Positions 58,207 through 62,489 of a stretch of 64,000 bases of DNA are shown one piece after another. The position numbers and the translations under genes were made by a program. Origin of the DNA: Spirosoma sordidisoli. GTDB taxonomy: Bacteria; Bacteroidota; Bacteroidia; Cytophagales; Spirosomataceae. The stretch spans positions 1,621,855 through 1,685,854 of the forward strand of contig NZ_SBLB01000001.1 of NCBI RefSeq assembly GCF_004138325.1, written 5' to 3'. Under the pieces are notes generated by a model that saw nothing but the letters and a program-made list of their open reading frames with translations, made no database searches and was not told where the DNA came from. Position 1 is the stretch's first letter. The number at the start of each line of letters is the position of its first letter.

Positions 58207-58239
58207 TTTTGCCCCCGAAAAGAGAAAGTGCTACTTTTA
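58207..58239 (+). promoter_or_regulatory. Promoter of the mutA operon
   Basis: TTTTG (58207-58211), 20 bases, then TACTTTTA (58232-58239), close to the Bacteroidota consensus, 23 bases before the mutA ATG. Confidence 0.6.
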
Positions 58240-58262
58240 CATCGTATCGTTATCGATTTTGT

Positions 58263-59627
58263 ATGGAGCCGCTCCCTAGCCATGTATTCCCAGCCACCAG
58301 CAAAGCCGACTGGCTGGCCCAGGTTCGGAAAGAACTGAAAGACGAGTTCGCCGATGAGAGCCTGCGCTGGACCATCGACCCGGTGGCCCCAGACAACGGC
58401 CTCACAGTCGACGCGTATTATACCGCCGACGACCTGACCGGATTGCCGCTGGCTACCATTCAGGAGGCCCAGCACCAAACCAACCGCGTCGGCTGGCTCA
58501 ACGCCCCCGAGTATCACATTACCGACCCAGCGAGCCAGTCGGTCACGCTCCGCGATGCGTTGACGCGCGGAGCCGATGCGCTGCTCCTGTCGCTGCCCGA
58601 AGACGTCAGCCAGACCGACGGGAACCTGGCCCGGTTGCTGCATGGCATCAAACTCAGCGATACGCCGGTTTATTTCCGGCTGTCGGGCAGTCCGGTTCCT
58701 TTCCTCAACAGCCTGCGTCCTATGGCGCCTTACCAGCTCAAAGGCGGACTACTAGCTACAGCCTCCGTTGAGGAAATTGTTGAAGCCACCCGACTGACGG
58801 CCGACTCGCCCCAGTTCAGAACCATCAGCATTGGCAGCCACGATTTTCATAATGCTGGGGCTTCCGCCGTTCAGGAGCTGGCTTTCACCCTGGCGCGGCT
58901 GGCCGATCAGTATAAGGCACTCCTGGCAGCGGGGTTATCCCTTGACCAGCTGGCGGCCCGGACGCTGCTCTCAGTATCGGTGGGCACCAGCTACTTTGTC
59001 GAAATAGCCAAGCTGCGGGCTTTGCGGGTACTTTGGCTCCGGCAAATGGCCACCTACGCCGACACCGGGTTTCCGGGTCCTCTGCTCCTGGCCCAGACAT
59101 CTACCTTTTACGATGCGGCCGTTACGCCCTATACCAACCTGCTCAGGGCCACTACCGAAGCGATGGCGGCCGTCATTGGCGGCTGCAACGTGCTAACTGT
59201 TCATCCGTACGACACGGTTTTGAAGGCCCCGGGCGAGTTCAGCGAGCGAATTGCCCGCAACGTGTCGATTCTGCTGAAAGAAGAAAGTTACCTCGACCGG
59301 GTGGCCGATCCCGCTGCGGGTAGCTACTACATCGAGACCCTGACCCACCAGCTTGCCGGGCAGGCCTGGTCTTTATTCGGCCAGGTACAGGCCATGGGGG
59401 GCTTTCAGACAGCGATGGAAACCGGTTTCGTTCAGGCCGAAATTGATCGGGCGTATCAGGCTAAGGTCGAAGCCGTTCGTGGCGGTAAGGTGCTGGTGGG
59501 TGTAACGAAGTTTCGGTTCGACGACGATACGACCGCCGAAGCCGCTGCTCCCCCGGCTGGCCTTCCCCGTTCGACCGGACTGCCCGACCGCCGACTGGCC
59601 GCCGAGTTCGAGCAGCCATATCAGTAA
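58263..59627 (+). CDS. mutA: Methylmalonyl-CoA mutase, small (beta) subunit
   Basis: The non-catalytic partner of the coenzyme B12-dependent mutase. It has 454 residues, covering the TIM-barrel homologue (e.g. YDTVLKAPGEFSERIARN, DPAAGSYYIETL) but not a C-terminal B12-binding domain, as in many short-form beta subunits. Start at 58263 (MEPLPSHVFPATSK). In the usual arrangement mutB follows directly, but here two small genes lie between. Confidence 0.93.
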   Translation: MEPLPSHVFPATSKADWLAQVRKELKDEFADESLRWTIDPVAPDNGLTVDAYYTADDLTGLPLATIQEAQHQTNRVGWLNAPEYHITDPASQSVTLRDALTRGADALLLSLPEDVSQTDGNLARLLHGIKLSDTPVYFRLSGSPVPFLNSLRPMAPYQLKGGLLATASVEEIVEATRLTADSPQFRTISIGSHDFHNAGASAVQELAFTLARLADQYKALLAAGLSLDQLAARTLLSVSVGTSYFVEIAKLRALRVLWLRQMATYADTGFPGPLLLAQTSTFYDAAVTPYTNLLRATTEAMAAVIGGCNVLTVHPYDTVLKAPGEFSERIARNVSILLKEESYLDRVADPAAGSYYIETLTHQLAGQAWSLFGQVQAMGGFQTAMETGFVQAEIDRAYQAKVEAVRGGKVLVGVTKFRFDDDTTAEAAAPPAGLPRSTGLPDRRLAAEFEQPYQ

Positions 59628-59639
59628 CCTTAACTAACC

Positions 59640-60032
59640 ATGGCAAAACGCTGGACAGAACGCCTGGACTCTTTTACCCGCGCGGTTGGACAACTCCGCT
59701 CCGCAGCAGCAAAAAACGACTATACTGAACTTGAGCGCGCCGGTCTGATTCAGGTGTTTGAATACACCTTTGCGCTAGGCTGGAAGCTGATGCAGGATTA
59801 CTGTCGGGAGCAGGGTTTCGAGGTTAACTCCCCGCGCGAAGCCATACAGACGGCACTGGTCGCCAGGCTGATTACAGAACCTGATGGCTACGAGTGGTTA
59901 GACGCCCTGAAGCAACGTAACTTACTGGCTCATACATATGATGAGCAGCGCAGTCTGGAAGCGGAAGCGCTCATCAAACAGCGGTATCTTGTCATCATCG
60001 AGCGTTTATACGAGACATGTCAGCAGCTATAA
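59640..60032 (+). CDS. HepT-type HEPN toxin
   Basis: A 130-residue all-helical HEPN protein (nucleotidyltransferase substrate-binding family, HI0074-like). It carries the RX4HXY motif exactly: Arg93-Asn-Leu-Leu-Ala-His98-Thr-Tyr100 (RNLLAHTY). In characterised HepT/MntA modules this is the RNase active site, and Tyr (here Tyr100) is AMPylated by the partner. It starts 12 bases after mutA and overlaps the antitoxin gene by 16 bases. Confidence 0.88.
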   Translation: MAKRWTERLDSFTRAVGQLRSAAAKNDYTELERAGLIQVFEYTFALGWKLMQDYCREQGFEVNSPREAIQTALVARLITEPDGYEWLDALKQRNLLAHTYDEQRSLEAEALIKQRYLVIIERLYETCQQL

Positions 60033-60340
60033 CATTTGGGTTACGCGACTCGGATCTGGCCTATATGCGTGCGTTGTTTCAGCAACATACCGACATTGAG
60101 CAGGTATGGATCTATGGCTCCCGCGCCAAAGGGACCAACCGCCCAGGCTCCGATATCGATCTGGCCCTGACCGGACCGGCCTTACGACCCGAAACCGTCC
60201 GTCAGGTGCATTTTGAGCTGGAAGAAGACAGCCCCATGCCTTTCTTCTTCGATGTCGTACACTGGAATACAGTTGGCAACGAGAACCTAAAGAACGAAAT
60301 TCAGCGAACGGCACAGCTTCTGTACCAACGTCCTTCCTAA
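60017..60340 (+). CDS. MntA-type nucleotidyltransferase antitoxin
   Basis: A 107-residue minimal nucleotidyltransferase of the HI0073/MNT family. The motif GSX10DXD is exact (Gly34-Ser35, then ten residues, Asp46-Ile-Asp48; [15 protein letters not shown]). In characterised systems it AMPylates the HepT toxin to silence it. It ends four bases before the mutB start, so it sits inside the mutAB operon. Confidence 0.88.
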
Positions 60341-60344
60341 GAAT

Positions 60345-62489
60345 ATGGAACCTACTCTCATCAACATACCGTCTTCAGCGTCACCGGCCAGCCCGCCAGC
60401 CTTCACTACGGCCGAAGGCATCCGGCTCAAGCCCCGCTTTACCGTTGCCGATATCGCCGGCCCCGATGGGCAACTGGCCGACCATTTGTCCTACGCAGCG
60501 GGTATACCGCCGTTTCTGCGGGGGCCCTATGCCAGCATGTACGTACGCCAGCCCTGGACCGTACGGCAATACGCCGGTTTCTCAACGGCCGAAGCCTCGA
60601 ACGCCTTCTACCGCCGAAATCTGGCAGCTGGTCAGAAAGGGCTATCGGTCGCCTTCGACCTCGCCACCCACCGAGGCTACGACTCCGATCATCCACGCGT
60701 AGTCGGCGACGTCGGGAAGGCGGGTGTAGCCATCGATACGGTCGAGGACATGAAAATCCTGTTCGACCAGATACCGCTCGATCAGATGTCGGTCAGTATG
60801 ACCATGAACGGCGCCGTGCTGCCGGTTATGGCGTTTTACATCGTAGCCGCCGAAGAGCAGGGGGTTCCGCCCGAAAAACTGTCGGGGACTATTCAGAACG
60901 ACATCCTGAAGGAATTCATGGTGCGCAACACCTACATCTACCCGCCCGAGCCTTCGATGCGGATTGTGGGGGACATTTTTGCGTATACCAGCCGCCATAT
61001 GCCCCGGTTCAACTCCATCAGCATCAGCGGCTACCACATGCACGAAGCGGGTGCCCCGGCGCATCTGGAGCTGGCCTATACCCTGGCCGACGGGCTGGAG
61101 TACATCCGCACGGGCCTGCGGGCCGGTATGGGAATCGACGAGTTTGCGCCCCGGCTCTCGTTCTTCTGGGGCATCGGCATGAACCACTTTATGGAGATTG
61201 CCAAACTACGGGCCGGGCGGCTTCTGTGGTCAAAAATCGTGAAACAGTTTGCGCCGAAGAACCCGAAGTCGCTGGCGTTGCGGACCCACTGCCAGACGTC
61301 GGGCTACAGCCTGACCGAGCAGGACCCGTTCAACAACGTAGCCCGCACGACGATTGAAGCCCTGGCGGCTGCACTGGGGGGTACCCAGAGTCTGCATACC
61401 AACTCGCTCGACGAAGCCATTGCGCTGCCAACCGATTTCTCGGCCCGGATTGCCCGGAACACCCAGCTCTACCTGCAGCACGAAACCGACATTACCCGCG
61501 CCGTTGACCCCTGGGGCGGGTCTTACTATGTAGAATACCTGACCAAAGAACTGGCCGAGCGAGCCTGGGCCCTCATCGAAGAGGTAGAGCAGCTGGGCGG
61601 CATGACCAAAGCGATCGAAACCGGTTTACCCAAGCTTCGCATCGAAGAGGCAGCCGCCCGCAAACAGGCCCGCATCGACGCCGGGAAAGACGTCATCGTG
61701 GGCGTAAACCGCTATCGGCCGGCTTCCGAAACCGAAATCGAACTGCTCGAAGTCGACAACAAGGCCGTTCGCGATGCGCAGATCAACCGGCTGAACCAGG
61801 TCAGGAGCAGCCGCAATAACGAGCAGGTCAGTGCCGCGCTGCAGGCCATTACCCGGGCCTGTCAGCCAGACGCCAGCCAGCCTGCCCAGACCGACACTAA
61901 CCTGCTGGCCCTGGCCGTTGAAGCCGCCCGGCACCGGGCCACCCTGGGCGAAATATCAGACGCTATGGAAGACGCATTTGGCCGACACAAAGCCACGATC
62001 CGGGCTATATCGGGGGTTTACTCCGCCGAAGTTTCGGACGACGAGAATTTCCGGATGGCCCGCCAGATGGCCGATCAGTTTGCCGAACTCGACGGTCGGC
62101 GCCCCCGCATTCTGGTGGCGAAAATGGGGCAGGACGGCCACGACCGGGGCGCCAAGATCATTGCTACCAGCTTTGCCGATCTCGGCTTCGATGTCGACAT
62201 GGGTCCGTTGTTTCAGACACCCGCCGAAGTAGCCCGGCAAGCGGCCGAAAACGATGTGCACCTGGTAGGGGTGTCGAGCCTGGCCGCTGGTCATAAAACC
62301 CTGGTCCCCCAGCTCATCGATGAACTCAGACAAATTGGCCGCGATGACATTATGGTCATTGCAGGCGGGGTCATTCCGGCGGCTGACTATCAGTACCTCT
62401 ACGACGCGGGGGTCAAGGGTGTTTTCGGGCCGGGCACGGTTATCTCGGTAGCGGCCCAGAAAATTCTGACGGAGCTGATGGCTACGTAG
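60345..62489 (+). CDS. mutB: Methylmalonyl-CoA mutase, large (alpha) subunit
   Basis: The catalytic B12-dependent subunit, interconverting methylmalonyl-CoA and succinyl-CoA. 714 residues: substrate-binding barrel ([26 protein letters not shown]) and a C-terminal B12 domain (about 580-714) with the base-off motif DGHDRG ([13 protein letters not shown]). Its ATG follows the MntA stop by four bases. It overlaps the convergent kinase gene by eight bases. Confidence 0.96.

Follow-up and report, generated by a model that had tools for sequence, protein, structure and literature searches.

The closest solved relative of the gene pair analyzed here comes from Legionella pneumophila (8xeh, 8xdj, 8yuf), for which PMC11586414 reports that members of the HI0074/HI0073 branch act as toxin and antitoxin. 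According to the same paper, the RNase site of the toxin consists of Q44 and E47 with magnesium, the substitutions R98A and H103A are of negligible effect (the H103A protein is still active), and the tyrosine of the RX4HXY motif, Y105, receives AMP. The motifs RX4HXY and GSX10DXD, as in our pair, are ascribed in that paper to HepT/MntA of Shewanella oneidensis (SO_3166/SO_3165; 5yep, 6m6w, 7bxo). The HI0073/HI0074 proteins of Haemophilus influenzae (1no5, 1jog) fall in subfamily TIGR01987, as does our HEPN protein, and the record of HI0074 speaks of a substrate-binding domain, with no toxin. In our literature searches, methylmalonyl-CoA mutase, toxin-antitoxin and HEPN were never found joined in one paper; Spirosoma and toxin-antitoxin occur together in four, but in the title or abstract of none of these.

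The window is the whole stretch of 64,000 nucleotides analyzed from Spirosoma sordidisoli. Within it, two overlapping genes lie between mutA and mutB (Table 1). The HEPN gene starts after a gap of 12 bases from the mutA stop, overlaps the MNT gene by 16 bases, and is followed by the mutB ATG 4 bases beyond the MNT gene. These two genes, with their positions, motifs, overlap and gaps, had been given in the preliminary description and were all borne out; the naming of the flanking genes as mutA and mutB agrees with matches to methylmalonyl-CoA mutase subunits by PF01642 and NF006944. The start of mutA as listed is TTG, and an internal start further in is possible. A pattern scan of the plus strand between mutA and HEPN found no sigma-70-like pattern, and no match there to a Bacteroidota-like promoter pattern.

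Table 1. Features of the mutA-mutB junction in the window, and the repeat-like element of related loci (positions of that element are given with its locus).
Feature	Position	Strand	Evidence
mutA, methylmalonyl-CoA mutase small subunit	58209..59627	+	PF01642 E 8.4e-82; TIGR00642 E 2.3e-72, under the TIGR00642 cut-off
HEPN gene (HI0074 family), predicted RNase toxin, 130 aa	59640..60032	+	PF08780 and TIGR01987 matches
RX4HXY motif RNLLAHTY, HEPN codons 93-100 (R93, H98, Y100)	59916..59939	+	sequence
MNT gene (HI0073-like), predicted AMP transferase antitoxin, 107 aa, GSX10DXD	60017..60340	+	PF18765 match and motif
mutB, methylmalonyl-CoA mutase large subunit	60345..62489	+	NF006944, 1317.7 bits (cut-off 876)
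Repeat-like element, locus L090	2110-2263
Repeat-like element, locus L087	135 bases before HEPN	reverse
Repeat-like element, locus L092	3264-3417

In the profile search, the window HEPN matched PF08780 (E 9.8e-30, 103.6 bits, cut-off 31.8) and TIGR01987 (E 2.6e-23, 82.4 bits, cut-off 55.8), and the window MNT matched PF18765 (E 1.5e-15). The strength of these matches indicates that the HEPN and MNT genes are not due to chance. The pair had been described as HepT/MntA-type, of which the HEPN toxin/MNT antitoxin family stands and the subfamily has to be changed: by its profile matches, the pair is a member of the HI0074/HI0073 branch (PF08780/TIGR01987), other than the PF01934 HepT family. PF01934, to which Shewanella HepT belongs, matches two other places of the window genome and none at the mutAB HEPN, and the window MNT scored 45.8 bits with the MntA equivalog NF047752, under its cut-off of 60. 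From the PADLOC defence library no family matched the window HEPN, and nine matched the window MNT, the best being PDC-S09 at 1.3e-8. Elsewhere in the same genome, the PF01934 (HepT-like) genes are located at C22:24214-24504 (L001) and C26:314453-314725 (L002). A second PF08780 HEPN, followed by an MNT match holding one TAA, was found on contig 22 (455871-456607, L167) and makes up a further HI0074-type pair.

The AlphaFold model of the window HEPN (pLDDT 93) has its best structural match in the Legionella HEPN, with a TM-score of about 0.9 and 32-33% identity (8xeh/8xdj). By sequence, the leading matches of the window HEPN are 1wty, from Thermus (1.2e-15), and the HEPN protein of Legionella (2.2e-15). 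The Legionella MNT, of 108 aa against 107 in the window, is the top sequence match for the window MNT and spans residues 7-106. The HEPN fold is common to Shewanella HepT as well, at TM-scores of about 0.65-0.78 and 13-16% identity, and the Haemophilus proteins give a weak match for HI0074 (6.6e-4) and 2.1e-7 for the window MNT with 1no5. In the alignment, Legionella Q44/E47 correspond to window Q38/E41, and R98/H103/Y105 to R93/H98/Y100; the metal-site residues and the AMP-acceptor-type tyrosine are thus all present in the window copy. That the MNT protein adds AMP to the toxin tyrosine, as the preliminary description had it, is what PMC11586414 reports for the Legionella pair. The window pair differs from it in lying inside mutAB and in having Ala at HEPN position 45, which is occupied by Glu in the Legionella HEPN and in 62 of the 63 relatives compared from outside mutAB. 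In these relatives His98 is found in 61/63 and Tyr100 in 63/63. Residues 38, 41 and 45 are on one helix (30-57) of the AlphaFold model and, by their spacing, on one face. Given its Ala45, the window HEPN may or may not still act as a toxin. The 63 relatives comprise L031, which was absent from the earlier HEPN trees and core-residue counts; HEPNs broken or shorter than 100 aa (L011, L019, L030, L078) and the duplicates L099-L103 were excluded.

HEPN precedes MNT for 24/24 HEPN ORFs of the order-sweep loci and for 55 of the 59 in a second set that includes mutAB copies and duplicates; of the remaining four, two are without an MNT found and two belong to a three-HEPN cluster. Nearly all sampled HI0074-type pairs have this HEPN-first order, often with a 4-base overlap, unlike the MNT-first order given as the rule in PMC3710099.

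The comparison of mutAB regions proposed in the preliminary description was carried out on 36 Spirosoma genomes, and in most of them no complete pair was found. Five have both genes open at the junction: the window genome (G000), S. lacussanchae CPCC 100624 (G079), G191, S. luteum DSM 19990 (G140) and S. oryzae DSM 28354 (G055). Two genomes have broken copies (G197 and G201), which may be due to assembly error since these assemblies are 82% and 71% complete. HEPN stands alone in G158 and MNT alone in G155, short scars are left in G179 and G068, and G114 has an unrelated, TPR-like gene in the gap, below cut-off (L085). No trace of the pair was detected in the gap of 23 genomes, and G106 is without mutA or mutB. 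In fourteen of the 23, the gap measures 3-22 bases and leaves no room for a scar, and six have scar-free gaps of 45-89 bases; the gaps of G089 and G185 came out negative and are poorly measured, the scar test scoring instead the 60 bases that precede the mutA stop, and G200 was judged by match positions only. Of the 35 genomes with mutAB, 30 therefore have no complete pair at the junction, whether through breakage, loss of one gene or loss of both. It is not a fixed component of the mutAB operon, and the possibility that all related species carry it as such is contradicted by its presence in 5/36.

Several side features were seen at these loci. The stretch from mutA to HEPN carries, in G055 and G158, a repeat-like element whose ends are of the AACACAGAG and CTCTGTG types; a worn form of it is present in G197 (Table 1), and it has no match in the window. 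The MutB frame of G155 (L088) is open over 851 aa and gave two overlapping match pieces, which indicates an extra stretch near residue 500.

Outside Spirosoma, the mutA-mutB gap is filled with other genes. In G044 (L096) it holds a subtilase gene read from the other strand, and in G002 (L086) an 838-codon other-strand frame together with a beta-lactamase-type gene, with the same frame layout in G038 (L097). In another relative, G048 (L095), mutA and mutB are about 12.8 kb apart. Among the 291 genomes of an order sweep, 36 gave MNT matches with E of 1e-15 or lower. Neither MutA nor MutB was found within the fetched flank at the 27 inspected order-sweep loci outside mutAB, nor beside the pair at 28 loci outside Spirosoma (33 loci in the genome-contig scan); these sets cover the fetched loci, namely 30 of 56 places with three added later, and 30 of 41 order-sweep places. 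The S. luteum-type pair has its closest outside relative in a Bacteroidota metagenome bin (L110, 2583-3306), where it starts 7 bases after a housekeeping-like frame, presumably cysteinyl-tRNA synthetase.

The scars bear on the age of the pair at this junction. The 72-base gap of G179 encodes KDEIPRTTQLLHQR, which matches the MNT C-terminus with a score of 49 (reached by 0/8000 shuffles, the highest of which scored 46; the top score over 168 flank windows was 37). The 187-base gap of G068 encodes a HEPN N-terminus containing a stop, with a score of 57 (0/8000 shuffles, with a maximum of 51; maximum over 154 flank windows, 37). These two were the only hits at 0/1000 shuffles among 24 tests on 12 stretches, and a putative HEPN C-terminal remnant in G155 is weak (5/1000 shuffles). 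The six unbroken mutAB MNTs form one clade with support 97/94. Carriers are scattered over the outgroup-rooted MutA+MutB tree (support values not printed), where the scar-only G179 is the sister of carrier G140. The spread of intact, broken, halved, scarred and absent states makes one early insertion in Spirosoma, with many losses since, the likely and simplest account. The MNT branching departs from the MutA/MutB tree in some points (G140), and transfer between species is therefore possible. The preliminary description had also offered a mobile cargo in a tolerated gap. The cargo part is favoured, with two open genes in 5/36 and other genes in the gap, and a fresh mobile insert is not: the scars and the single MNT clade across the genus speak for an old presence.

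The HEPNs of the junction are of two types. Identity between those of G000, G079 and G191 and those of G140, G055 and G158 is 40-43%, with the MNTs at 60-77% across the same divide; for G191 against G140 the values are 42% for HEPN and 77% for MNT. Within the types, HEPN/MNT identities are 66/67 and 70/63. None of 200 bootstrap trees joined the mutAB HEPNs in any of three HEPN trees, the later of which were built with further long or near-identical rows excluded and six repeat loci left out of the enlarged sets. The AU test on joined mutAB HEPNs gave P 0.023, but 0.285 without long branches and 0.188 with more relatives. A MAKRWxER start is common to the six mutAB HEPNs of both types; among the other HEPNs compared, RWxER occurs in L123 and MAKRW in none. 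The mismatch between HEPN and MNT identities suggests a replacement of the toxin, on which the tree tests disagree; either an exchange of the toxin half with the antitoxin kept, or fast divergence, would explain the two types.

Signs of both decay and constraint were observed. The HEPN-only copy of G158 has Q38L, E41K, H98Y and Y100H, as expected if the toxin is disarmed before the antitoxin can go, and the G055 HEPN has Q38L. The S. lacussanchae HEPN, a 95%-identical sister of the window copy, differs from it at seven residues, among them H98N in the sister and E45A in the window. H98N need not kill the toxin, as H103A left the Legionella toxin active (PMC11586414). Of the differences between the two sister HEPN genes, 7 are nonsynonymous and 14 synonymous, which gives an omega of 0.147 (binomial P 5e-5); omega is 0.214 for MNT (binomial P 0.011), 0.138 for mutA and 0.066 for mutB. 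Selection between these sisters has thus been purifying for both HEPN and MNT, which speaks against plain neutral decay and makes a kept benefit possible. MNT catalytic residues are retained in 6/6 unbroken mutAB copies, including that of G155 without HEPN, and the HEPN and MNT motifs are intact in G191 and G140. Changes at core HEPN columns were counted in 3/6 mutAB copies against 2/44 outside (leave-one-out, without L031; P 0.009) and 5/63 (P 0.018), but against 5/19 when the sequences used for column choice were excluded (P 0.34). Relaxed constraint at these columns in mutAB copies is accordingly not demonstrated when sequences unused for the choice serve as the comparison. Decay is also not special to mutAB, since L031 (G058), outside it, is a full-length orphan HEPN with H98L and no MNT found adjoining, of the same kind as G158.

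We consider it probable that the pair is a formerly, and perhaps still, working type VII passenger that rides on readthrough from mutAB at a junction tolerant of insertions and is by now decaying in Spirosoma. An HEPN-MNT pair of the HI0074/HI0073 branch would have inserted between mutA and mutB early in the evolution of the genus. Free HEPN would act as an RNase slowing growth, and MNT would silence it by adding AMP to Tyr100; both modes of action are taken by analogy from the Legionella relative. Both proteins would be supplied by mutAB readthrough through presumed cotranscription, and the overlapping frames would couple the antitoxin supply to the toxin. The junction tolerates extra genes, judging from the subtilase, beta-lactamase-type and TPR-like genes in the gaps of G044, G002 and G114, so the pair could persist as a passenger. 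Being dispensable, it would have had its toxin damaged or deleted in some lineages, probably in advance of the antitoxin, which was then free to go, and would have been lost from most Spirosoma species.

A working toxin-antitoxin could instead gain from its site, cotranscription with mutAB tying the toxin level to propionate and B12 metabolism. The 12-, -16- and 4-base spacing, the promoter pattern absent between mutA and HEPN, the selection between the sisters and the intact motifs of G191 and G140 agree with such coupling. However, 30 of the 35 mutAB-bearing Spirosoma genomes, including G179, the sister of carrier G140, have the pair absent, broken or halved, and MutA/MutB were not beside it at the 27 order-sweep loci or the 28 loci outside Spirosoma. 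The link to propionate metabolism put forward in the preliminary description found no support other than position; given the distribution of the pair, coupling is not favoured as the main reading and seems unlikely.

A domesticated pair, in which MNT guided by a silent HEPN AMPylates MutA or MutB and so regulates the mutase, we regard as very improbable. Domestication of HEPN-MNT modules is proposed in PMC3710099. The retention of MNT catalytic residues in the six unbroken copies, even where HEPN is gone (G155), would suit it, as would the two sister HEPNs, one altered at Glu45 and the other at His98, with both genes still constrained. Against it, mutAB is without the pair in most Spirosoma genomes, G158 keeps a damaged HEPN alone, and the nearest outside relative is located after what we take to be cysS (L110). 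Equally improbable is the old reading of HI0073/HI0074 as a nucleotidyltransferase with its substrate-binding subunit, a small-molecule enzyme and no toxin, which has the family names of PF08780 and TIGR01987 on its side and, against it, the toxin and antitoxin that PMC11586414 reports for Legionella members of the same branch. That the embedded MNT and a non-killing HEPN became an AMP-transferring mutase regulator, the toxin half being exchanged in one lineage as the antitoxin half stayed, is likewise very unlikely.

Under the passenger reading preferred here, the mutAB junction of Spirosoma offers a natural series of one pair at one site: intact, with a point-mutated toxin, toxin alone, antitoxin alone, scarred, and gone. 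Such a series makes it testable, in few cultured species, which half goes first and what value a chromosomal type VII pair has to its host. The Spirosoma mutAB case is also a caution against inferring metabolic coupling from gene position alone.
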